A DNA stretch of 64,000 nt from Myxococcales bacterium (lineage in GTDB: Bacteria; Myxococcota; Myxococcia; Myxococcales; Myxococcaceae): contig JAUXRI010000300.1 in NCBI GenBank assembly GCA_030681895.1, forward strand, positions 1 through 64,000, read 5' to 3'. Below are positions 37,192-62,386 of this stretch, in pieces. Position 1 is the first letter of the stretch. Each line of letters starts with the position of its first letter. The notes beneath the pieces were generated by a model, which had not been told where the DNA came from, searched no databases, and saw only the letters and a program-made list of their open reading frames with translations. The translations under genes were made by a program, and so were the position numbers.

Positions 37192-37914
37192 TCAATCGCG
37201 CGCGCGCTTGAACCGATAGACCGCGGCCGGCTTCGACGTGGTGATGCGTTTGCCGGGCGCGAGCTCGAGCCGGCCTTCTTCCAACCACCGGTTGAACGAG
37301 CGGCGGAAGTTGCCCGGGTCCATCGGCTTGCCGAGCACCACGCCGTGCACGTGGCGCAGCTCGGGGATCGTGAAGGTCGCCGGCACGAGATCGAACGCGA
37401 TGTTCGTGTACTCGAGCTTTCCGCGAATGCGCTGCAGTGACATCTCGACGATCTCTTCGTGATCGAAGCCGAGCTTCAGCTTGGGCACCGCGGCCACGTC
37501 GAACCACTCCACGTCCGACACGTCACCGCCGGCCTTCACGAAGGGCGCGAGATCGGGGCGCACCAACGCGTAGTACGCGACCGTGATGACGCGCAGGCGG
37601 GGATCTCGTCCCGCCTTGCCGAACGTGTAGAGCTGTTCGAGGTAGACGCGCTCCGGGTCGAGGCCGGTCTCTTCCTGCAGCTCGCGCCGCGCTGCCTCGT
37701 CGAGATCTTCACCCTGCTCGATGGGCCCTTCGCCGACCCGCACGAAGCCGCCGGGCAACGCCCACTGCCCCTTGAACGGGTGCTCCTTGCGTTTGACGAG
37801 CAGCACCCGCAGCTGAGCGTCGACGATCGTGAGGATCACCAGGTCGACGGCGACGGACGGGCGCGGGTAGTCCTTCGCGCGATAGGCCGTGAGGAACGCC
37901 TTCTCTTCCGACAT
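37192..37914 (-). CDS. nrtR: NrtR-like Nudix transcriptional regulator of NAD metabolism
   Basis: The 240-residue protein has an N-terminal Nudix domain (residues about 18-155) and a C-terminal winged-helix part (FTIPELRHVHGVVLGKPMDPGNFRRSFNRWLEEGRL, then YRF near the end). This is the NrtR/COG4111 layout. The Nudix box can be read as GPIEQGEDLDEAARRELQEETGL, fitting GX5EX7REUXEEXGU, with a short insertion before it. NrtR repressors sense ADP-ribose or NAD derivatives and control NAD genes. Here the neighbours are topA and the TPR gene. The NAD salvage operon at 55.7-61.5 kb is a candidate target. Confidence 0.7.
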   Translation of the reverse strand: MSEEKAFLTAYRAKDYPRPSVAVDLVILTIVDAQLRVLLVKRKEHPFKGQWALPGGFVRVGEGPIEQGEDLDEAARRELQEETGLDPERVYLEQLYTFGKAGRDPRLRVITVAYYALVRPDLAPFVKAGGDVSDVEWFDVAAVPKLKLGFDHEEIVEMSLQRIRGKLEYTNIAFDLVPATFTIPELRHVHGVVLGKPMDPGNFRRSFNRWLEEGRLELAPGKRITTSKPAAVYRFKRARD

Positions 37915-51025: not shown

Positions 51026-52417
51026 TCAGACCCTCGACGCGACGAGTTCCTTGAACCGGGCCCCGATCGGATTTCCATCGAGCACCAGCCGCGCGCGCTT
51101 CAGGGTCTTCGCCGACAACAAGGCCTCGGCGCCGGTCTGGTTGATGCGGTTCGACGCCAGCCACAACGACTCGAGGGTCGCCAGGTGCGAGGTGCGCGCG
51201 AGCAGAATCGCGCCGTCATTTCCGATGCGATTGGACGACAGCGACAGACGCGTGAGGCGCTTGAACCGAACGCGCGCGAGCAGCTCGGCGCCGTCGGGGC
51301 CCAGCTCGTTGTCCGACAGCGAGAGCCGCGCGAGCCCGGCGAACCAGCGCGCCTTCGTGAGCGCTTCGACGCCCGTCGAGGTGAGCGTATCGGACGTGAG
51401 CGAGAACTCCGTCAACGCAGGGAAGGCGTCGCTCCCGGCCAGTTGTGCCGCACCGTCGTCTCCGAGCACCTGCCCCGTGAAGCCGAGTGACGTGAGGCCC
51501 CGGAGCTTGCGGGTCGACGCCAGGCTCGTCAGGCCTTCCCGACCGAGCGGCACGAGCGCGCCTCGCGTGGAGCGAAAGTCGAGCGAACGAACCGTCGCCA
51601 GCCACGGCCACGACAACACACGCGCCACATCCACTCTCCGGCGACTGGCGAAGACGAGCGCACGGACCGGCTCGTTCGCGAGCGTCGCCTGCGCCGCATC
51701 CAGGGAGTCGACATCGAGCACCGTCACCGCATCGAGGAAGCCGCGCGCAAACGAGGCCGTGACAGCGTCGGCGGCGAGCGGGCCCAGCCACGTCGCTCCG
51801 TGCGAAGACAACAGGCTCACCTGCCGGGCTTCGAGCTCGAGCCGACGGCCGTCATCAAGATCGGGTCGCGTGAGTTCGCACTGCACCGCGATGAACTCTC
51901 CGCGCGGGTCGCCCTGCTCCATCAACCAATCGGCGTAGACCTGCCGGGGCCGGTCGTCGTCCGGAGCCTTGCGAATCGCGTCGAGCAACGAGGTGGCGCT
52001 CGGTGCCTCATGCTCGAAGGCGATGCGCCGTCGATCGGCCGCGCGTCGGTTCGCCCACTGCTCGCACCGCACCGCGTTCGCCATCGGCGTCCACGCATCC
52101 CACCCGCGCAAGTCGCCGAACGCGCGATCAGGAGACACGAGCCCCGTCCTCGCGGTGCCCAGCCCGACGACGACTCCGGTGTCCGTCGCGACGCAGAGAC
52201 ACAAAGACGTGTGCTGCCGGCCGTCCTCCACGTCGCCGCCGTGCACGACGACGTATGGAAGGCGATCGCGCCGAAGCGATTCCGCGGCGGCCTTCACCTG
52301 CGTGGCGCTCAAGGTACGAGCCGTGCGTCGCCCGTTCACTTCACGGAGCCGCGCGTCGAGCCACGCCTCGTCTTCCTTCGTCCACACGCAGCCCCTGCCC
52401 TCGCTCAACAGACTCAC
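51026..52417 (-). CDS. TIGR02996 and leucine-rich-repeat protein
   Basis: The 463-residue protein has an N-terminal unassigned region (about 1-145) and then the TIGR02996 repeat-companion motif (LLDAIRKAPDDDRPRQVYADWLMEQGDPRGEFIAVQ). Degenerate leucine-rich repeats follow in the C-terminal half (LSDNELGPDGAELLARV, LSSNRIGNDGAILLARTSHLATLESLWLASNRINQTG). TIGR02996 typically marks large repeat proteins in Myxococcota and Planctomycetes. The GTG start overlaps the stop of the upstream kinase gene, so it is coexpressed with that kinase and may bind its substrates or regulators. Confidence 0.75.
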   Translation of the reverse strand: MSLLSEGRGCVWTKEDEAWLDARLREVNGRRTARTLSATQVKAAAESLRRDRLPYVVVHGGDVEDGRQHTSLCLCVATDTGVVVGLGTARTGLVSPDRAFGDLRGWDAWTPMANAVRCEQWANRRAADRRRIAFEHEAPSATSLLDAIRKAPDDDRPRQVYADWLMEQGDPRGEFIAVQCELTRPDLDDGRRLELEARQVSLLSSHGATWLGPLAADAVTASFARGFLDAVTVLDVDSLDAAQATLANEPVRALVFASRRRVDVARVLSWPWLATVRSLDFRSTRGALVPLGREGLTSLASTRKLRGLTSLGFTGQVLGDDGAAQLAGSDAFPALTEFSLTSDTLTSTGVEALTKARWFAGLARLSLSDNELGPDGAELLARVRFKRLTRLSLSSNRIGNDGAILLARTSHLATLESLWLASNRINQTGAEALLSAKTLKRARLVLDGNPIGARFKELVASRV

Positions 52418-55400
52418 CGTTGACCGGACAGGGCGCGCCGAATCGCGGCGTTCGCATGCGTCGCCGCCTCGCGTACGTCCGTGGCCTGCCGCACGTCTTG
52501 CGCCAGGGTCTGGAGCAGCGGCACCACCTGCAGCCCGCCGACCTTCGACAACGCGCTCGCGAGCAGCTTGCGCTCCTCGTTGAAGCGCCCGCGGTTCATC
52601 ATCGGCGGCTTCTCGAGCACCACCTTCTGCAGCGCTGCGATGCCCACGGGCTCGCCCCGGAGCGCGACGGCCTCGAAGAGCGCCTCCTTCTCGGTGCCGG
52701 GACGCTCAGAGAACTGCGGGCTGCCGAGCAGATCGACGAGCACCTGGTTCGCCTCGCGCACCTGCGTTCGCGCGAGCGCGTCGATCACGGCAAGGCGCAG
52801 CTGCGGCGCGGGATCTCGGAGCGTCTTCGAGAGGAACGCCATCGCGTCGCCAGACCCCAGCCTCGCGACGGCGTCGAGCATTCGTGCGCGCGAGCGGCCC
52901 TGCGCCCTCGGCCACAGCTCGTGCACGACGGCCATGGTGTGGTGATCGCGCGCCCGCGCCAGCACGGCGACCAGCTCCACCGCGCGCGCCTCGTTCGCCT
53001 CTTTCGCCATCGCGACGAAGGGCAAGGGATCGGTCCGCGCGAGCACCGCGAAGGCGTCGAAGAGGGCGGCCTGGCTCGGCTCGTTCGTCACGAGATCGAG
53101 CAGGCGAAGCATCGACGGCACCTGCCCCGGCTCGAGCAATGACAACAGGCGCGCGAACTCGCGGGGGTCTCTCGGCGGCCCGTCGTTGAGCACCTGCGTG
53201 AGGAGCGCGACGCACTCGTCATCCGAGAGATGCGCGACGAGATCACGCGCGAGGCTGACCTCGAGCACGTCGTCCTGTGCGCCGCCGACGGCCTTCAACG
53301 TGCGAATGAAACCGTTGAGCGTGGCCAGCTCGTCCTGCATCAGCAGCGTGTCGATGACGGGCAACAACAACGGCAAGATTCGCTCTCGCGACTCGAGGCC
53401 GGTCGACACCAGCGACTGCATCAACGCCGCGAGCGGCTTCCAGACCTCGTCGCCGCTCTCGACGAGCTTCTTCACTGTGCCGGCCTGGGGCGTCCACCCG
53501 ACCAGGGCGTACTCGCTGCCCGGGAAGAGCCCTTCGGCGCGCACCGGCTCGGCGTCGTTGAGTGCACGCTCGAGCGCTGCCACAGAGAGCCCATCGAGCC
53601 GAAGCCGCAGGGTGCCTCGCATCATCTTCGCGATCTGCTCGGCCGTCGCCGGCGTGTGCCCGGGGCGGGGAGCGCGCAGGCCCCACCACGCCATCGAGGT
53701 GAAGACGATGCGCGTCGGCACCGAGGGCGCCAGCATCGGCAGCTCGCCACGACCGAGCGACTCGTCGAGCCCGCGGCTCAGCTCACTCGACAGCTCGTAG
53801 CCCAGCACCATGCGGCGCCAGACGGCCGGCCCTGACTCGGCTTCTGCGAGGGCGGAGCGAATGACGCTCACCGGTGTCTGTCGCAACAGGCTGCGCTCGT
53901 CGGCGCTGAGCTGATCAGGCGCGGCCAGGGCCAGCGGGTGCACCTGAATCATGCCGACCGAGGTCGAGACGGCGAGGTGCGCGACGTCGCGCAGGCGCCC
54001 CGGCGGAAGACCGAGATCGAGCGCCATGGCGGTCGCCGTGAACGCGGCGTTGGCGGCCTGGGCGGCGAGGCTCTCGGTGCCGTCGAATTGGCCCGTCACG
54101 CCGAGCAGGCGCCGGCCGGGCCGCTGCGCCTCTGCCACGACGACGTCAGCCAGCTGCAGCGCGCCGAAGGTGTCGAACGAGCGGCCACGCGACGCGGCCT
54201 CGATGAACTGCGCGATGCCGGTGACGACCCGCTTCCAGGCGTCGAGCGGGTTGGCGGGCCGGGCCACGCCTCGGGCGGCGTCGGGCCGGAAGACGAGCCG
54301 CAACGAGGTGAGCGCGTCGAGCCCTGCGGGCTGGCCCGTGCGGAGGAAGCGCACCAGCAACTCGACGTCGGACGCCGTCGGCGCGCGGAGCAGCACCAGG
54401 CCCTCGAGCCCACGCACCGACAACAGGCGCGCCAGCTCGGCGCCGAAGTCATCGTCGCCGAGGGCCGGCTCGATGCGCACGCCATTCACGGTCAAGGCAG
54501 CGTCGACGACGGCCAGCGTCACCGCGCCGCGCGCACGGAACAGCTCGGCCAGCGAACGTTCGAGCAGCCTGCCCAGCCGCTCGAGCGTGATGTGGCCAAC
54601 GTCGAAGAACGGAGCGAGCCGCGCGGCCCACGACAGGACCGTGAGCGCGCGCAGATCGTGAGAGGCCTGCCCTTGCAGTTGGAGGAGCAGCCGCCCCGGT
54701 CTCGGACGACTCAGCGGCCGCTCGATCTCGTCGGTCAGCGGCTTGCCGAGGCCGGACTCGAACACGCGAGCTTCGTCGACGAACTCGAGCATCGCCTCGG
54801 GCGACAGCGACGGGCCGGTCGGAGTCTCGACGTTCGCGCCGAGATCGGCGGTGCCACCTTCGACGATCGCGCACAGAGCCCGTTCCAGCGCCTCGGCGTT
54901 TTCGAAGCGCGCGGCCGGATCTTTCGCGAGGCAGCGCTGAACCACCGCCTCGAGCTCCTCGGGCACGCTGGGCGCGAAGAGGCGAATCGACGGCGGCGGC
55001 GTGTGCATGTGCGCGTAGATGACGCGCGGCAGCTCGGGGCCTTCGAACGGCATCACGCCCGCCAGCATGCGGAAGAGCAAGACGCCGAACGCGTAGAGGT
55101 CGGCGCGGTGGTCGACGATGAGCCCGGCGATCTGCTCGGGCGCGCAATACATCGCGGTGCCCACCAGCATGCCGGAGCTCGTGAGCTGGGTGAGCTGCTC
55201 GAGGCCGCGAGCGATGCCGAAGTCGATCAAGACGAGCCGCTCGGTCTCGGTGTCTCGACCGACGAGTACACAGTTGTCGGCCTTGATGTCGCGGTGGAGG
55301 ATCTTCTTCGAGTGCACGTACCCCAGCGCCGCGCAGAGCTGCCGGGCGAGCGTCACCGCACGTTCCCACTCGAGGCGTGGGTGGAGCTGGAGGTGATCTT

Positions 55401-55695
55401 TCAGCTCGACGCCGTCAAGGTGCTCCATGACGAGGAAGAGACCGTTGTCGTCTTCCCCTCCATCGATGGCGCGGACGATGTTGGGGTGCTCCAACGTCAG
55501 GGCGGTGGTGATCTCGCGGCCGAACCGCACCCGGTTCACCTTGTCGATGTCACCGCCCTTGAAGCGCAGCCGCTTGACGGCCACGCGCTCGTTCGTCTCG
55601 AGATCGAGCGCGCGGTAGACCTCGCCCATCCCGCCCTGGCCAAGCAGGGACTCGAGGCGATAGCGCTGGGAAACGAGCAGATGGTCGGACGGCAC
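52414..55695 (-). CDS. Ser/Thr protein kinase with long C-terminal region and HEAT-like repeats
   Basis: The 1093-residue protein has an N-terminal kinase domain (residues about 12-280) with all main motifs: LGQGGMGEVY loop, Lys41 in VAVKR, HRDIKADN catalytic loop, DFGIARG and APEQ. The long middle region, about 280-860, has no family I recognise; it is mostly helical. The last 200 residues show HEAT-like repeats (MAFLSKTLRDPAPQLRLAVIDALARTQVREANQVLVDLL). No membrane helix is obvious. It lies 46 bp downstream of the vWA gene and may be cotranscribed with the TerY-P/NAD genes. Confidence 0.85.
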   Translation of the reverse strand: MPSDHLLVSQRYRLESLLGQGGMGEVYRALDLETNERVAVKRLRFKGGDIDKVNRVRFGREITTALTLEHPNIVRAIDGGEDDNGLFLVMEHLDGVELKDHLQLHPRLEWERAVTLARQLCAALGYVHSKKILHRDIKADNCVLVGRDTETERLVLIDFGIARGLEQLTQLTSSGMLVGTAMYCAPEQIAGLIVDHRADLYAFGVLLFRMLAGVMPFEGPELPRVIYAHMHTPPPSIRLFAPSVPEELEAVVQRCLAKDPAARFENAEALERALCAIVEGGTADLGANVETPTGPSLSPEAMLEFVDEARVFESGLGKPLTDEIERPLSRPRPGRLLLQLQGQASHDLRALTVLSWAARLAPFFDVGHITLERLGRLLERSLAELFRARGAVTLAVVDAALTVNGVRIEPALGDDDFGAELARLLSVRGLEGLVLLRAPTASDVELLVRFLRTGQPAGLDALTSLRLVFRPDAARGVARPANPLDAWKRVVTGIAQFIEAASRGRSFDTFGALQLADVVVAEAQRPGRRLLGVTGQFDGTESLAAQAANAAFTATAMALDLGLPPGRLRDVAHLAVSTSVGMIQVHPLALAAPDQLSADERSLLRQTPVSVIRSALAEAESGPAVWRRMVLGYELSSELSRGLDESLGRGELPMLAPSVPTRIVFTSMAWWGLRAPRPGHTPATAEQIAKMMRGTLRLRLDGLSVAALERALNDAEPVRAEGLFPGSEYALVGWTPQAGTVKKLVESGDEVWKPLAALMQSLVSTGLESRERILPLLLPVIDTLLMQDELATLNGFIRTLKAVGGAQDDVLEVSLARDLVAHLSDDECVALLTQVLNDGPPRDPREFARLLSLLEPGQVPSMLRLLDLVTNEPSQAALFDAFAVLARTDPLPFVAMAKEANEARAVELVAVLARARDHHTMAVVHELWPRAQGRSRARMLDAVARLGSGDAMAFLSKTLRDPAPQLRLAVIDALARTQVREANQVLVDLLGSPQFSERPGTEKEALFEAVALRGEPVGIAALQKVVLEKPPMMNRGRFNEERKLLASALSKVGGLQVVPLLQTLAQDVRQATDVREAATHANAAIRRALSGQR

Positions 55696-55741: not shown

Positions 55742-56533
55742 TCAGGGCGTGAAGAAGCCCGCGTTCACGCCAGGAGCGACCTTCCCCTGGCTCGCGCGAA
55801 TGGCCGACTTCGAGACGAGCTGGAACGTCTTGCGAAGGCCCGACGGCGTCGCGTCGCGCTGCACGTGCACGCACCCGGCCGGCACGCCCATCGCCGCCGC
55901 GATCAGCTCGAACTGGGTGTCTTTGCCCACGCCGACGAAAGCGAGCGTGAAGAGCTCGCTGGCCAGCAGATCCTTCGACAGCTTCGCGCAGGTGGGGCTG
56001 GTGCGGGTGCTGCCGACGTCTTCGCCATCAGTGACGACGACGACGACGCTCCGGGTGGGCGTGCCGCCGTCACGCAGCCGCTGGGCGTAGGCGACGTTGG
56101 CGGTCAGCGCGTCACACCAGGTGTCGTAGAGCCGCGTCGCACCGCCCGCGCGGTAGTTCTTCGCGTCGAGGCGCGTCGAGTCTTCCACCGGCACGTACGA
56201 GTGCAGCACCTTCTGATCGCCGTTGAAGGTCCACAGCGCGAGCAGCACCGAGTCCTTCTCCTTCGCGCCACCGAACGCGTCGAGCAGCGCGTTCTGCCCG
56301 TCACGCACGGCCTGCTCGAGGCCGCGATCAGCGATCGAGCCGCTCGCGTCGATGAGCAGCGTCACCAGCGTCACGTCACTCGCGGTGATGTCTTCGAGCG
56401 CCTTGCCCGCGGCGCCGGCGAGCACGATGCCACCGAGGTTGCCGGTGATGAGGGTGGAGGTCTGCGCGCTCAGGACGCCGGTCGCGACCGCGCTGGTGAG
56501 GTTCTTCGTCACGTCATCGTCGTTGCTGGACAT
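55742..56533 (-). CDS. TerY-like von Willebrand factor A (vWA) protein
   Basis: The 263-residue protein is a single vWA domain with an intact MIDAS: LLIDASGSIAD (DxSxS), the Thr of AGGATRLYDT, and the Asp of VVTDGEDVGS. The N-terminal 55 residues are a small Gly/Thr-rich lead. The fold and size fit TerY/YegL, the vWA member of the TerY-P triad, which works with a PP2C phosphatase and a Ser/Thr kinase. Both partners are encoded just upstream in the same operon. The residues needed for metal binding are present, so ligand binding through Mg is expected. Confidence 0.8.
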   Translation of the reverse strand: MSSNDDDVTKNLTSAVATGVLSAQTSTLITGNLGGIVLAGAAGKALEDITASDVTLVTLLIDASGSIADRGLEQAVRDGQNALLDAFGGAKEKDSVLLALWTFNGDQKVLHSYVPVEDSTRLDAKNYRAGGATRLYDTWCDALTANVAYAQRLRDGGTPTRSVVVVVTDGEDVGSTRTSPTCAKLSKDLLASELFTLAFVGVGKDTQFELIAAAMGVPAGCVHVQRDATPSGLRKTFQLVSKSAIRASQGKVAPGVNAGFFTP

Positions 56534-56606
56534 GGAGGTCTCCTGCCCGGCGCATTGCCGGTTCTTGTGAAGGGTGGACTGATGGGGTGGGTCAGCTCAG
56601 GTCAGC

Positions 56607-57575
56607 TCAGATCGTGACGGGGTCGGACGTCTTCACGACCTTCATGCCGGCCTTCTTCCACTTCTCGAGCGCCTCGGTGGCGATGCGCGGGAAGTCGAGG
56701 TGCGACGGGAGCGGCGAGATCGGCGGCGCAGGCACCGGGCTCATCGCGTCTTCGAGGATCCAGATCTTCTCGGCGAGCTTCGGGTCGGACTGCATCACGT
56801 GCTCTTGAATGTCGTTGAGCGTCGAGAGCACGCAGTGGCTCTTCGCCTGCCCGAACACGTAGACGCGGTCGTATTCCATCAGCATCTTGAAGAAGGGCGT
56901 GTTGAACGAGCCCACCACCTGGCCGCCCAACTCGGTCACCTCGGGCGACATGACGGAGTAGTTCTCGGTCATCGCGTGCGTGCCCTTGGTCTCGAAGTGC
57001 GTCTGGTGTTTGCGCGCGGCGGCGTGGAACAGCGACGCCTCCATCATCGACGGCACCAGCGCGTGCGACAGCCCGCCGAGCAGCGTGTGGTACGGCCACA
57101 CCGTCAGCACGTACTTGCCGCTCGCCTCGAGGCGCTTGACGTACTCGAGCGACTCCTTCGGGTGCGCCACCGCCGTCCATTTTCCGGCGCGCACCTCTTC
57201 ATGGAAGATCGGCGTCAGCGGCGCGGGGTGTTTGCCCTTCGCGTCGATCCACCACGCGGGGTGGAAGATCTGGAACATGCGGTGCGTGTCCATCGAGAAG
57301 AACAGCGACGTCACCTTGTCGAGGTTCCGGTACAGCCACTCGACGGTGCGCTGGGTGTCTTCGACGGCGCCGGGCACGAAGAGCGACGCGCCAGGCGTGC
57401 AGAAGCCGACCTGCACGTCGATGCCGAACGCCGCGATGCGGAACTTGTCGGCGCCCGAGGGCTTGATGCCGTGCTTCTGCGCGTACGCCTCTCCGGCGTC
57501 GGCCACGAGGCCCGCGCGCTCCATGAACAGCTGGGGAACCTGCTTCGACTCGTAGAAATCGGGCAACGGCAACAT
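56607..57575 (-). CDS. Nicotinamidase-like cysteine hydrolase
   Basis: The 322-residue protein belongs to the isochorismatase/nicotinamidase fold. It has Asp53 in FGIDVQVGFC, a metal-binding DxH in FSMDTHRMFQIFHP, and the nucleophile Cys248 in VFGQAKSHCVLSTLNDI. Nicotinamidase turns nicotinamide into nicotinate. The protein is about 100 residues longer than typical PncA. The presence of nicotinate phosphoribosyltransferase in the same operon makes nicotinamide the likely substrate, but other amides are possible. The start is 22 bp after the kinase stop. Confidence 0.75.
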   Translation of the reverse strand: MLPLPDFYESKQVPQLFMERAGLVADAGEAYAQKHGIKPSGADKFRIAAFGIDVQVGFCTPGASLFVPGAVEDTQRTVEWLYRNLDKVTSLFFSMDTHRMFQIFHPAWWIDAKGKHPAPLTPIFHEEVRAGKWTAVAHPKESLEYVKRLEASGKYVLTVWPYHTLLGGLSHALVPSMMEASLFHAAARKHQTHFETKGTHAMTENYSVMSPEVTELGGQVVGSFNTPFFKMLMEYDRVYVFGQAKSHCVLSTLNDIQEHVMQSDPKLAEKIWILEDAMSPVPAPPISPLPSHLDFPRIATEALEKWKKAGMKVVKTSDPVTI

Positions 57576-57597
57576 GGGGCCTCCTGTTCGACTGCGT

Positions 57598-59382
57598 TCA
57601 CGACAACGACAGCTGCACCAACTCCTTCGACGTGACGACGACGAGGCTCCCGTCGGACTGCGGGAGGAGCTCGTCTTGAGCGCTCACGAATGGCTGGGTG
57701 TCGGCGAAGCACGCGGCTTCGACCAGCACGCCTGAGTCGAGCTTCATCGCGAGCAGCCCGTCATCGGAGCCGATCACCACACGGCCGCCGAGCAGCGCGG
57801 CGTGACCGCTGCGACCGCCGACGCTCGTGCCGACCACCGCGCCGTCTTCCGAGATGAGCCAGCGATGCACGACGTCTTTGCCGTTCACTTCGGCGGTGAC
57901 GCTCAAGAGCCCGTGCCGCGCATCGAACACCGCGTCGGCGGAGATCACCCTGCCCGTCCACCGGATGCCTGAGAGCTGCTTCACGCCCGCGCGGCCGCTG
58001 CGCAGCAGGAAGGCCACCGTGACGCCGCCTGCCCGATAGAAACCCAGGCCGAGGCGCTCCCCGGTCCACAACCAGGTCTGGCCTTCGAGCACCTGCCCGA
58101 CACGCGTCCCGGTGCCCTGCTCGATCAACCACTCGTTCTCGGTGCGGTAGGTGACGGCGGTCGCGGTCGCGAAGGTCGGCTCCGAGGCACGGACGCCGGT
58201 CTGCGCGCGCTCGACGAGTTTGCCGTGTTCATGACGCTCCATCGCGCCGCGTGACGACACCACCCAGGTCGACGCGCCGGCGAGCCCGATGCGCTCCTGC
58301 GGGAGCAAGGGCCGATTGAGCACCACCGCACCGTCTTCACGTCGCACGACGCCCTGCTCTTCGAAGACGTACTTCACGCCGCCTTGCATCGACGCCGCGA
58401 GCACCCGCCCACTCGTCTCGAAGAGGATCTTCGCGGTGCAGCGGCCCTTCACGCGAACGGCAGGCTTCGTCGCGAGCGGACCCAGCGCATGACACGTCGG
58501 ACAGACCGGCCGCGCATGCGTGACCCCGCACGAGCACGTCGACCACGACTGCTGGAGCACGCGCTTCGTCGGCGCCTCGCGCACGTCCTTCTCGAACGTC
58601 TGCGAGAACCAGTGGAGCGCGTCGTCGGACAACGTCTTCCACGAGGCAGCGACGCGCGGGAGCACGACGTCGTCCTTCATCACCGGGTGCCGCGCCTCGG
58701 CGCGCCGGAGCATCGTGCTCAACTTCGCGTGTGTTCCGCCGAACGGATGCACGTACAGCAGCGACGAGAACAGCATCACCGCGAACGCGTACCAGTCGGT
58801 GCCTTCGTCGAAGCGCGGGCTGTTCGAGAGGTCGACGCCGTAGAGGCGCGGGTCGAGGAACCGCTCGTGCCCGACGGCGCAGGACAAGCCCGAGAACTGC
58901 ATCGAGTCGGCGTCGATGAGGAACACCCGCTGGGAGCCGGGCTGCACAAGCACGTTGCCATCGTTCAGATCGCCGACGATGACCTGGTGTGCGTGGAGCG
59001 ACTGCACCGTCTGCTCCAACTCGCGGAACATCGTCATCACGACGTCGTTCGAGATCGTGTTCTCGCGGAACTTGCGCTGCGCCAGCCGGCCCGCGTCCTC
59101 GACGTCCGACAGCGCCTGCATCACGAAGCCGATCACATCACCGCGCTGATCCTTCACGAGCTCGAGCGGTCCGAGCACGTTGGCAGGCAAGGCCTTCGGA
59201 AAGAGCGCGAGCTTCTCGAGCTTCACTGCGCGCACCCGGGCCTCTGCAGCGTTCGCCGGATCGACGGGATGGAAGACCTTCACCGCGCGATCCCTCCAGC
59301 GAAAGACGCGCGCCTCGCCGCCTTCACCGAGCAGGTCGCTGTCCTTCAGGCGCACGCGCGTGTTGGCGACGTAGACGTCCAT
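57598..59382 (-). CDS. YegI/TerY-P-type Ser/Thr kinase with zinc ribbon and C-terminal propeller-like domain
   Basis: The 594-residue protein has a divergent kinase domain (residues about 12-275). The nucleotide loop is LGEGGEARVF, Lys35 is in RAVKVFHP, the catalytic loop is VGDLNDGNVL with Asp138 and Asn143, and DAD (Asp157) stands at the DFG position. This GDLN...DADS form is typical of TerY-P kinases. Next comes a zinc ribbon, CSCGVTHARPVCPTC (Cys283, 285, 294, 297). The last 290 residues are beta-rich and repeat-like, suggesting a propeller. The PP2C gene is 2 bp upstream. Confidence 0.8.
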   Translation of the reverse strand: MDVYVANTRVRLKDSDLLGEGGEARVFRWRDRAVKVFHPVDPANAAEARVRAVKLEKLALFPKALPANVLGPLELVKDQRGDVIGFVMQALSDVEDAGRLAQRKFRENTISNDVVMTMFRELEQTVQSLHAHQVIVGDLNDGNVLVQPGSQRVFLIDADSMQFSGLSCAVGHERFLDPRLYGVDLSNSPRFDEGTDWYAFAVMLFSSLLYVHPFGGTHAKLSTMLRRAEARHPVMKDDVVLPRVAASWKTLSDDALHWFSQTFEKDVREAPTKRVLQQSWSTCSCGVTHARPVCPTCHALGPLATKPAVRVKGRCTAKILFETSGRVLAASMQGGVKYVFEEQGVVRREDGAVVLNRPLLPQERIGLAGASTWVVSSRGAMERHEHGKLVERAQTGVRASEPTFATATAVTYRTENEWLIEQGTGTRVGQVLEGQTWLWTGERLGLGFYRAGGVTVAFLLRSGRAGVKQLSGIRWTGRVISADAVFDARHGLLSVTAEVNGKDVVHRWLISEDGAVVGTSVGGRSGHAALLGGRVVIGSDDGLLAMKLDSGVLVEAACFADTQPFVSAQDELLPQSDGSLVVVTSKELVQLSLS

Positions 59383-59384
59383 GG

Positions 59385-60101
59385 CTACAGCTCCCGCGTG
59401 TCGAGGACGGCGAGGGTGGTGTCGTCGGTGAAGCGCTCCGTTTCGTTGAGCACGTTGAGGCGCCGCTGCAGGTGCACAGGGTTGGTCCAGACGTGCGGCT
59501 CGTCGAGCAACGCGCGCAGTCCATCGGGAGCACGCGAGAGCCAGCCGTCGACGCCATCGGTCGCGAGCGCCACCCGCCGCGCTGGTCCCAGGTGATGCAC
59601 GCGCGCGGGCACCGACTTCCCCGTGAGCCGATAACCCACGTACGCCGGCGCGTTGTCGTCGCCTGAGTCGAGCCGGGTCAGCTGCCCGTCGACGAAGACC
59701 GCGCCATCACCCGAGCCGAACACCACGCACTCCGGGCCCCGCTGCACGGCGCACAAGACGGTGAACAACCCGTACTGCTCGAGCACCGCCGTCGCGTCGT
59801 CGACCTCGACCGAACGCACGAGGCGGTCGAGCCACGAGGTGAGGTGCTCCATCGCGACCGTGGGGAGTTCAGGCAACGCAACGTGCTCGAGCGCCACCGT
59901 CATCATCGCCAGCGCACGCGCACCGAGCCGGGCGCCGACCTCCGAGAAGGGCTGGCTCGAGCAGCCATCCGTCACCACCGCCACCGTCGTCTCACCGCGA
60001 GAGGAGACGAAGACGCCGTCCTGGTTGTTGCGGCCGAGGCGCACGTGCTCTCGCCCGATCAGGCTCGCGGTCCGCGTGGTCGTGTGGTGACGGGAACTCA
60101 T
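59385..60101 (-). CDS. PP2C-type phosphatase of a TerY-P triad
   Basis: The 238-residue protein has the PP2C core: RNNQDGVFV with a metal-binding Asp, VVTDGCSS, VVFGSGDGAVFV, VALATDGVDGWL and FTDDTTLAVL. The key metal-binding Asp residues are in place, so activity is expected. Proteins of this kind remove phosphate from partners of the cognate kinase (compare E. coli YegK). The ATG overlaps the upstream nicotinate phosphoribosyltransferase stop by 4 bp, and the kinase starts 2 bp downstream, so all three must be coexpressed. Confidence 0.85.
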   Translation of the reverse strand: MSSRHHTTTRTASLIGREHVRLGRNNQDGVFVSSRGETTVAVVTDGCSSQPFSEVGARLGARALAMMTVALEHVALPELPTVAMEHLTSWLDRLVRSVEVDDATAVLEQYGLFTVLCAVQRGPECVVFGSGDGAVFVDGQLTRLDSGDDNAPAYVGYRLTGKSVPARVHHLGPARRVALATDGVDGWLSRAPDGLRALLDEPHVWTNPVHLQRRLNVLNETERFTDDTTLAVLDTREL

Positions 60102-61537
60102 CCAAACGCCTCTTTCTTCAAGCGGGTGACGAGGGCCTCGGTGGCCGGAGAGTGGACGAGGCGCAGGTCCTCCGCGCGAACGGACTTCGCCTCGGCCAGA
60201 GCGGGCGACGACGATGCAGGTGCTCCGGTGAGCAGCTCGTAGCCCTCGGCGACGGCCTCACCTTCCTGGGCGACGACGCCGAATGGGCCGCTGGCCCCCG
60301 CGCGCCGCCGCCACAGCACCGGCTTTCCGGGAACGCTCTGCTTGCCGCTGCCCGCCTCGTTCCCGAACTTCATGCAGGCCCGTTTCCCGGTCTGCGTCAG
60401 CTTGTAGACGGCCGACACGCGATCTCTCGTCAGCGGAGAGCCCGCGGTCTGCGCGACGATGAAGCCGCCGTACCCGTACACCTGCTCCTCGGGCGTCCAC
60501 CCGACCTCTTTGCGGAGCTCTTCGAAGCGCTTCGTCAGCGCGGTGTCGAAGCCGTCCTCCAGGATCTGCACGGGGCGAATGCCCATCTCGTCGGCGAGCT
60601 TCGCGGCGAAGCGGTACTGCGCTTCTTTGTCGCCGGAGTCGTAGCGAATGGAGTCGTGCTTCCCGCCGCGCTCCTTGATGATCGCGTACGCCGCCGGAAT
60701 GCCGCTCTGGATGGTGTCGAAGGTGTCGAGGAGGAAGCTGGAGCGATTCGAGCGGCGCTCCACCATCGCGCGGAAGGCCGCGTCGTCGGAGCCGAAGCGC
60801 TGCACGTGTTCGTGCCCCATGGTGCCGACAGGAATGAGGCCCTTCACGCGCGCGCCGTACACGTGGCTGGTGCGGGTCAGCCCTGCCGCCTTGCACCCCT
60901 CGAGCGCTAACAGGTGCTGCTCGACGCAGGTCGCCGCGCGGAGCCCGACCTCGAAGAGGCGGTCGGCAGTCCCCGTCACCTCGGCGAGCTCCTTCACTCT
61001 CGCCGTGACGCGCGCCACGTACGCCTCGGACGCGACGGTGATCGGCGGGGCCTTCACGCCCACCGCGTCGAGCGTCTCGAGCACGATGCGCTTCTGCTCC
61101 TCACACGTCACCGTGCCGACCGCCGCTGCCAGCTCGTCGGGCCGCAGCAGCGCCACCGTCGCGACCTGCACGCGGTAGCTCCACATCAACACCAGCGGCT
61201 CGAGCCACGAGACGACCGCCGACGGCCCGGTGATGCAGAGGATCGGCTCGCGGTCATGGAAGACGGCGTTCTTCGGCAGCGCGTGGATCCGCACCTGGCT
61301 GATGAGCGCCATCGCCGCCTTGAACCCCGCGCTCATCTCGTAGTCGTGCTTCGCCAGGAACTCCCAGTCGCCCGCTTCGGGCACCGGCAACACCTCGCGC
61401 ACCAGCTTCTCGACGTCGAAGGGCAGCACCTGCAACCCGCCCTTGCGGTGCGACGCGTAGAACGTCTCTTCCCGCAGCGGCCAACCCGCCTCCGCCATCG
61501 AGAACTTGTAGCCGTCCGTCACCAGCAACCCAGCCAT
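60098..61537 (-). CDS. pncB: Nicotinate phosphoribosyltransferase
   Basis: The ATG at 61537 gives 479 residues. The enzyme joins nicotinate and PRPP to make nicotinate mononucleotide in NAD salvage. Typical segments are the N-terminal LLVTDGYKFSMAEAGWPLREETFYASHR, a His in GTMGHEHVQRFG, and the PRPP-site stretch LLDTFDTIQSGIPAAYAI. A YDSGDKEAQYRFAAKL helix and VYGYGGFIV follow. The longer start at 61573 lies upstream of a good promoter, so 61537 is preferred. It is the first gene of the operon that carries the TerY-P triad and a nicotinamidase-like gene. Confidence 0.88.
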   Translation of the reverse strand: MAGLLVTDGYKFSMAEAGWPLREETFYASHRKGGLQVLPFDVEKLVREVLPVPEAGDWEFLAKHDYEMSAGFKAAMALISQVRIHALPKNAVFHDREPILCITGPSAVVSWLEPLVLMWSYRVQVATVALLRPDELAAAVGTVTCEEQKRIVLETLDAVGVKAPPITVASEAYVARVTARVKELAEVTGTADRLFEVGLRAATCVEQHLLALEGCKAAGLTRTSHVYGARVKGLIPVGTMGHEHVQRFGSDDAAFRAMVERRSNRSSFLLDTFDTIQSGIPAAYAIIKERGGKHDSIRYDSGDKEAQYRFAAKLADEMGIRPVQILEDGFDTALTKRFEELRKEVGWTPEEQVYGYGGFIVAQTAGSPLTRDRVSAVYKLTQTGKRACMKFGNEAGSGKQSVPGKPVLWRRRAGASGPFGVVAQEGEAVAEGYELLTGAPASSSPALAEAKSVRAEDLRLVHSPATEALVTRLKKEAFG

Positions 61538-61555: not shown

Positions 61556-61584
61556 GTTATAGACACCAAACAAAGAGTCGTCAA
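61556..61584 (-). promoter_or_regulatory. Sigma-70-type promoter of the NAD salvage / TerY-P operon
   Basis: On the minus strand TTGACG (61579-61584) and TATAAC (61556-61561) are exactly 17 bp apart, a near-consensus housekeeping promoter. Transcription would start about 12 bp before the ATG at 61537, with GAGG as ribosome binding site. A repeated TGTCT occurs just upstream of the -35 box and inside the spacer, a possible operator. Confidence 0.65.
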
Positions 61585-61588
61585 GACA

Positions 61589-61888
61589 CTATCTTCAGTG
61601 GAACATTTGAGAGCAAATGCAGAAGCGATAACAACGGCTTAAGATGTCACACGAAGTCCTGCACACTGGCGCGATCTGTCCGACCGGAAACAATTAGTTT
61701 TGATTTACGACACATAAGAACTGATGCGCATCGATTTTGGCTGCGTATTGAATTGATCTTCGTGCTGTTTCGCCGCGCTCCGTAATCCTTCGTGACATGC
61801 GTGGAGCGCCCAGTCGCAACGGCTCGAACCCCTGGTGCGATGATGTAGGCACACGGCGCCACTGCGGCGCACCAAAGGGGAGAACGAC
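61589..61888. other. Divergent intergenic region, unusually A+T-rich
   Basis: The gap between the NAD salvage operon and the second ECF sigma gene is clearly richer in A and T than the surrounding coding DNA, especially 61560-61770. Beyond the promoter at 61556-61584 I see no gene and no clear second promoter for the sigma gene. The sigma gene has a good ribosome site (GGGGAG) just before its ATG. Confidence 0.5.
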
Positions 61889-62386
61889 ATGAAGCAGGAA
61901 CTGAAAATCGAGACGCTCTACGCGAAGTACGGACCGACGATCTACGCACGCTGCCGCCGCCTGCTGCGAGATCCCGTCGCTGCCGAAGACGCGACGCAGG
62001 ACATCTTCGTGAAGCTGATGCGCCACATCGAAGCGGCGCCGACCGAAGACGCGGTGCTCCCCTGGATTCACCGCATCGTGACGAACCACTGCCTCAACGT
62101 CATTCGTGACGCCAAGCGCCGCGCCGCCCCGGTGGAAGAGCTGCCGGAGCTGGTCGACGACGACTTCGAAGACAGCGTGGTGTCGAAGAACTTCGCGCAG
62201 AAGGTGCTCGAATCGGCGCCCGAAGCCATCAAGGCCCCCGCCATGCTGTACCACGGCAAGGGCATGGAGCAGTCGAAGGTCGCCGAGACGCTCGGCTGCT
62301 CGCGCCGCACCGTGCTGTACCGCCTCTCGGAGTTCACGCGCCGCGCGATGAAGATGCACGCCGCCGCGGAAGCCGGGCAGGCCTGA
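61889..62386 (+). CDS. ECF-type RNA polymerase sigma factor
   Basis: The 165-residue protein has region 2 (LYAKYGPTIYARCRRLLRDPVAAEDATQDIFVKLMRHI) and region 4 (QSKVAETLGCSRRTVLYRLSEFTRRAMKM), the minimal ECF layout. The start is well supported by GGGGAG 9 bp upstream. No anti-sigma gene is adjacent: a strong terminator follows after about 25 bp. Control may therefore be at transcription in the A+T-rich upstream region or by a distant partner. It is divergent from the NAD salvage operon and shares its control region. Confidence 0.88.
   Translation: MKQELKIETLYAKYGPTIYARCRRLLRDPVAAEDATQDIFVKLMRHIEAAPTEDAVLPWIHRIVTNHCLNVIRDAKRRAAPVEELPELVDDDFEDSVVSKNFAQKVLESAPEAIKAPAMLYHGKGMEQSKVAETLGCSRRTVLYRLSEFTRRAMKMHAAAEAGQA

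Follow-up and report, generated by a model that had tools for sequence, protein, structure and literature searches.

Triads of the TerY-P type, for which yegI/yegK/yegL of E. coli presumably represent the counterpart, have been known for years, to our knowledge without a clear substrate or signal. A kinase–zinc ribbon–beta-rich protein accompanied by a PP2C phosphatase and a vWA protein has also been described in GAP1-N2 GTPase-centred conflict systems (PMC7159879), and ADP-ribose has been reported as the ligand of NrtR proteins (PMC6800001, PMC9503650). In the present study, we analysed a window of 64,000 nucleotides, which is the whole stretch of DNA examined here from a Myxococcales bacterium, and found a tightly packed gene set, apparently with a single conserved promoter-operator, that would combine nicotinamide recycling with a phosphorylation triad.

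The minus strand of the window carries five genes, which encode a divergent nicotinate phosphoribosyltransferase (NAPRT, the first gene of the operon, 60098–61537), a PP2C phosphatase (59385–60101), a Ser/Thr kinase with a zinc ribbon and a predicted C-terminal beta-propeller (a YegI-like member of the triad, 57598–59382), a nicotinamidase-like cysteine hydrolase (HYD, 56607–57575) and a TerY-like vWA protein (55742–56533), spaced successively by a 4-bp overlap and gaps of 2, 22 and 73 bp. This order, its place and its spacing agree with the preliminary description of this DNA. The adjoining genes for a 1093-aa kinase and LRR proteins were considered as further members of the operon and rejected because their location differs among close relatives, and an Rfam search gave no match near the operon. 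The mechanically called NAPRT reading frame begins at TTG 61573; however, ATG 61537 was taken as the start because the conserved promoter described below lies between both codons, and the protein counted from this ATG is 479 aa long. Its score against TIGR01513 (123 bits, E=1.2e-35) was under the equivalog cut-off of 297, and it was therefore classed as a divergent NAPRT. The best PDB match was 2f7f (E=1e-14), and the motifs E196-x-G-x-R200, GT239..H242, D271-T-x-D274 and R298-x-DSG (D300-S-G) are common to this protein and canonical NAPRTs.

The PP2C, the kinase and the vWA protein matched Pfam PF13672 (PP2C_2, E=5.6e-17), PF00069 (Pkinase, E=9.3e-9) and PF00092 (E=4e-7), respectively, all above the cut-offs. 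The metal-site residues D45-G46, D182-G183 and D226-D227 of the PP2C were invariant among 18 relatives, cyanobacteria included, as were K35, D138, N143 and D157 of the kinase among 20 kinases and the MIDAS residues D62-x-S64-x-S66, T133 and D169 of the vWA protein among 18 relatives. In the zinc ribbon (CxC...CPxC, kinase residues 283-297, 58492–58536 on the minus strand), C283 and C285 were invariant and C294 and C297 were at least 90% conserved among 20 kinases. A vWA protein with MIDAS, a PP2C encoded in the same operon and a Ser/Thr kinase with a C-terminal zinc ribbon are the marks of a TerY-P triad, and the earlier assignment of the three genes to this triad was supported by the Pfam matches, the intact catalytic and metal residues and the zinc ribbon. 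The AlphaFold2 model of the kinase (pLDDT 90.5) comprised the kinase domain, the four-Cys zinc ribbon and an all-beta domain, and the Foldseek search with this model was led by the kinase-WD40 structure of LRRK2, with an alignment spanning both the kinase and the C-terminal domain. The C-terminal domain (residues 309-594, 57601–58458 on the minus strand), which had been described as beta-rich from the sequence, is predicted by these two approaches to be an all-beta, WD40-like propeller, possibly serving as a sensor or docking platform.

HYD had no match among the Pfam and NCBIfam models, including PF00857 and NF008623, and its divergence was revealed because a PF00857 search of the source genome yielded one copy only, on a different contig, and failed to detect HYD. 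A phmmer search of the PDB with the single HYD sequence returned no genuine match; the HYD alignment profile returned four, among them M. tuberculosis PncA (MtPncA, 3pl1) and yeast Pnc1 (2h0r). In a 32-sequence alignment of the window HYD and its relatives (37-96% identity), the catalytic-type residues D53, K197 and C248 and the metal-type residues D96, H98 and H163, which were equated by motif with the Asp-Lys-Cys triad and the Asp-His-His metal site of PncA, were invariant, and they are surrounded by PncA-like motifs, with a metal motif, WPxH, like that of PncA. When the AlphaFold2 model of HYD (pLDDT 92.8) was subjected to Foldseek, nicotinamidases ranked first (Acinetobacter nicotinamidase, E=1.2e-11, and yeast Pnc1), and biuret, ureidoacrylate and maleamate amidases, which have the same isochorismatase-like fold, ranked lower. 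As judged from its sequence and predicted structure, HYD is a member of the nicotinamidase fold family with all the catalytic residues present, and it probably constitutes a separate divergent family outside the curated nicotinamidase models. The nicotinamidase-like character suggested in the preliminary description was thus upheld by the invariant residues, the profile matches and Foldseek.

Canonical PncA (NF008623, E<=1e-25) was found neither in the source genome nor in any genome of the same family that has HYD. Among 195 Myxococcota genomes, 97 had HYD only, 25 had PncA only and 5 had both, indicating a tendency to mutual replacement with a Fisher p of 2e-5 that is uncorrected for kinship; with that reservation, the counts are in line with the pattern expected of one nicotinamidase replacing another. 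In view of the five genomes that have both, HYD may serve a more specialised purpose. HYD could represent a large family of likely nicotinamidases missed by current models, which would account for the apparent absence of PncA in most Myxococcaceae. NadA for de novo NAD synthesis is present in the window's genus, so that salvage is an additional source of NAD and not the sole one.

HYD was present in 102 of the 195 Myxococcota genomes, with two copies in many Myxococcaceae, and was found in four types of arrangement. The full set NAPRT-PP2C-KIN-HYD-VWA (i) is present in the genus of the window and in approximately ten genera related to it; Myxococcus, Corallococcus and their relatives have just the pair NAPRT-HYD (ii). 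The order PP2C-KIN-HYD-VWA lacking NAPRT (iii) occurs in further families of Myxococcota and also, there with the paralog HYD-B, in Myxococcus-type genomes. Lastly, HYD may be solo (iv), sometimes adjoining NrtR or canonical NAPRT (the latter at L068 and L114). The genera with the NAPRT-HYD pair have a further triad as well, which comes with a separate hydrolase, HYD-B. In one genome (G018), the order is canonical NAPRT, Prs (PRPP synthetase), PncA (above the cut-off), PP2C, kinase, HYD, vWA and NrtR. When approximately 85,000 species genomes were scanned, at least 549 relatives were detected, and the best 80 of them included six cyanobacterial KIN-HYD-VWA loci (L111, L133, L134, L145, L148 and L151), five of which also have PP2C and NrtR, these Cyanobacteria figures resting on individually fetched loci. 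The order PP2C-kinase-HYD-vWA was kept across Myxococcota and in Cyanobacteria, often with NrtR adjoining. The regulator gene flanks the HYD-B triads, follows vWA in other families and HYD in several operons of the NAPRT-HYD type, and is oriented divergently from PP2C in Cyanobacteria. Cyanobacterial modules also include an ADP-ribosylglycohydrolase (PF03747). This enzyme releases ADP-ribose, the reported ligand of NrtR. In the HYD tree, the window type was split from HYD-B and the cyanobacterial type (100/100), with triads in both groups, and the pairwise distances of four module proteins correlated, most highly for HYD and vWA (r=0.94), although some correlation would be expected from shared descent alone. 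Judging from its recurrence in more than 12 genera, the gene arrangement is non-random. The search for the gene order in other genomes, which had been suggested earlier, revealed that the triad with HYD is conserved across phyla, so that the proposal survived the refuting test named there; as for the co-occurrence of NAPRT with the triad, it holds in the window's wider clade, but elsewhere NAPRT-HYD occurs without the full triad or the triad without NAPRT.

A 21-bp palindrome, ATAGTGTCTTGACGACTCTTT, is located upstream of NAPRT on the minus strand (61572–61592), being the only copy in the window, where 0 were expected by shuffling, and the only match at three or fewer mismatches in the 9.8-Mb source genome. 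In the same genus, it was found once each in 6 of 7 genomes, always before NAPRT, and the reversed pattern was found in none. In 1.16 Mb of related loci, which include some genomes twice, 32 sites were found at four or fewer mismatches compared with 0 in the control, and all but one of them (31/32) were at the operon's first gene, be it NAPRT or PP2C; the consensus is AWAGWGTCTTGACGACTCTWT. The palindrome covers the -35 box (TTGACG, 61579–61584), and a 17-bp spacer leads to the -10 box (TATAAC, 61556–61561), with the start codon close behind. The position of the -35 box and the 17-bp spacer were identical in all examined NAPRT-first operons with the palindrome, and a -10-like hexamer was likewise placed in relatives. 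A simple promoter scan missed this promoter because the -10 box ends in C. Such geometry would correspond to the layout of a repressor site.

The single NrtR match in the source genome, with a Nudix domain and an NrtR winged helix (37192–37914 on the minus strand; NUDIX, E=2.9e-23; NrtR_WHD, E=1.8e-11), is located 18 kb from the operon, and no operator was found before nrtR itself. NrtR proteins were classified by winged-helix score into the weaker A-type (approximately 1e-10 to 1e-15) and the B-type (1e-20 or better). Every one of the 19 sampled genomes that carry the operator had the A-type, and the operator was absent from all six sampled NAPRT-HYD genomes whose NrtR is exclusively of the B-type (G062, G073, G086, G115, G124 and G140); the exceptions were three sampled A-type genomes without a clear operator (G152, G018 and G183). 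Hence, the operator and A-type NrtR appear to co-occur, and the palindrome may be regarded as a candidate NrtR operator, to which we infer that NrtR binds. Similar palindromes were present in the cyanobacterial NrtR-PP2C intergenic regions, and operator-like ones in some HYD-B loci (L063, L065 and L066) and not others. NrtR with its candidate operator would provide a link to NAD beyond that of the salvage genes, and the NAD link of the operon is well supported.

We consider it somewhat probable that this locus is an NAD-salvage operon that is controlled by NrtR and contains its own phosphorylation switch in the form of the TerY-P triad, of which HYD would be the likeliest client. NrtR would occupy the palindrome that covers the -35 box, probably repressing the operon, and NAD turnover would raise the NrtR ligand, such that repression would be lifted by NAD breakdown products. 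HYD would convert nicotinamide to nicotinate and NAPRT would convert nicotinate to NaMN, by which nicotinamide would be returned to NAD. The co-expressed triad would act as the switch, with the kinase phosphorylating and the PP2C reversing it, and with the vWA protein presenting the client; the zinc ribbon and propeller of the kinase might be involved in ligand sensing or partner docking. We infer that the triad could, by phosphorylating HYD or NAPRT, control NAD flux. The operon linkage suggests that bacteria place NAD recycling under phosphorylation control, and a link to ADP-ribosylation stress is possible. More tentatively, and with slightly more doubt than confidence, the locus may exemplify a widespread undescribed signalling module under NrtR control, in which a eukaryotic-like kinase, a PP2C and a vWA protein act directly, through reversible phosphorylation, as regulators of a new nicotinamidase family. 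If so, NAD recycling would be coupled to a switch, based on a protein kinase, that responds to NAD breakdown products.

It is conceivable, although we regard it as rather unlikely, that NrtR governs the triad together with the salvage enzymes while the triad leaves these enzymes unmodified, so that NAD breakdown would induce the operon, the triad would phosphorylate other stress targets and HYD and NAPRT would refill NAD. A shared operon indicates co-expression only, TerY-P triads serve varied systems elsewhere (PMC11090510), and approximately a dozen sampled loci, mainly from Myxococcaceae, have NAPRT-HYD without the full triad; therefore, the enzymes do not require the triad. However, the kinase/vWA subfamily never occurred without HYD among the 195 Myxococcota genomes, HYD being present in 87 of the 87 with the triad kinase (E<=1e-20) and in 91 of the 91 with the vWA protein (E<=1e-10). 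Furthermore, HYD is usually located between the kinase and the vWA protein, in the two hydrolase clades as well as in Cyanobacteria, suggesting physical or functional coupling to HYD. Because of this constant company and enclosure, HYD is favoured as the client in the preferred reading of a salvage operon with its own phosphorylation switch.

An ADP-ribosylation or NAD-depletion conflict module, in which ADP-ribosylglycohydrolase, the Nudix regulator, nicotinamidase and the triad would counter NAD-consuming attack by phages or competitors, seems improbable. The window operon has no glycohydrolase, nuclease or other effector, is steadily present across its clade and not patchy, and has a conserved, core-like neighbourhood with GlnRS, sigma factor and LRR genes. 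On the other side stand the ADP-ribosylglycohydrolase of the cyanobacterial versions, the earlier proposal (PMC9503650) of conflict systems that are centred on a glycohydrolase and include Nudix regulators and vWA proteins, and the accompaniment of CoCoNuT restriction systems by TerY-P (PMC11090510). PADLOC gave no match for HYD, vWA or NAPRT and no specific defence family, and its matches for the kinase and PP2C were weak and generic; in view of this result and the core-like surroundings, the phage-defence role raised in the preliminary description was not supported. It is more improbable still that HYD is an isochorismatase-fold amidase for another amide, with its neighbours reflecting a loosely related pathway, since, despite the lower-ranking amidases of this fold and the retention of PncA in some HYD genomes, nicotinamidases top both the profile and fold searches, the WPxH motif is like that of PncA, HYD is repeatedly paired with two NAPRT types, NrtR and Prs, and most HYD genomes have no detected PncA.

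Compared with the PncA/Pnc1 nicotinamidases, HYD is alike in predicted fold and in the D-K-C catalytic-type and D-H-H metal-type residues but differs in its length (320-350 aa vs approximately 180-220), in the extra N-terminal helix and insertions and in being missed by PF00857 and NCBIfam. The GAP1-N2 GTPase systems (PMC7159879) have a kinase of very similar architecture and identical partners, whereas the window operon is without their GTPase conflict genes and has NAD salvage as the partner. With the NrtR regulons of NAD metabolism (PMC6800001), it has in common the Nudix-winged-helix regulator, the palindromic promoter site and the NAD genes; unlike them, it includes the kinase-phosphatase-vWA triad, and one operator was found in the genome. 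The ADP-ribosylglycohydrolase-centred systems (PMC9503650) likewise have a Nudix regulator and vWA, and share the ADP-ribosylglycohydrolase with the cyanobacterial modules, but they use rhodanese-type or other phosphatases and chaperones, with no TerY-P kinase or nicotinamidase described. In the literature searched, the coverage of which stops short of key subscription papers on TerY-P and NrtR, no connection of TerY-P to either NrtR or nicotinamidase was made; NAD genes controlled by NrtR have been described before, as have TerY-P triads, and their combination and the HYD family appear to be undescribed. With the TerY-P triad, represented in E. coli by yegI/yegK/yegL, the window operon shares the three proteins, here with intact catalytic or metal sites, and it differs by the extra beta-propeller of the kinase. 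Finally, known TerY-P triads accompany restriction or tellurite genes, whereas the window-type triad has a nicotinamidase-like gene at its centre, with NrtR or NAPRT as frequent companions. The triad repeatedly surrounds a single metabolic enzyme and would be governed by a regulator that in other bacteria is known to sense ADP-ribose, which offers a concrete candidate client, the nicotinamidase-like HYD, and a candidate signal, NAD breakdown, for TerY-P.

The gene that follows the operon in the window encodes a Ser/Thr kinase of 1093 aa with a HEAT-like C-terminus (52414-55695). Among the close relatives compared, this kinase also follows the operon in genome G152, and the place is occupied by the LRR gene alone in others; the kinase gene therefore appears to have been inserted or lost recently. 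On the upstream side, an ECF-type sigma factor (61889-62386) is transcribed divergently from the operon, and its position beside the operon is kept in most of the clade.

NAPRT or vWA carried an in-frame stop or frameshift in draft genomes at loci L039, L041, and L071 (G112, G107, and G154), probably owing to sequencing errors or recent decay. Two records whose titles name Candidatus Riflebacteria and Woesebacteria (L083 and L112) contained modules of the nicotinamidase-like hydrolase (HYD) that were Myxococcota-like or cyanobacteria-like, and likely represent mis-binned contigs or transfer.

Cyanobacterial HYD modules had ADP-ribosylglycohydrolase genes within or adjoining them (L111:5128-5964, L145:4677-5450, L151:4326-5138, and L118:7163-7951), in some as a tandem pair (L145 and L148). 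Genome G026 (L065) harbored two copies of the paralog type HYD-B (L065:6018-7073 and L065:10045-11094) with PP2C and kinase genes between them, and NrtR, Prs, and canonical NAPRT nearby.
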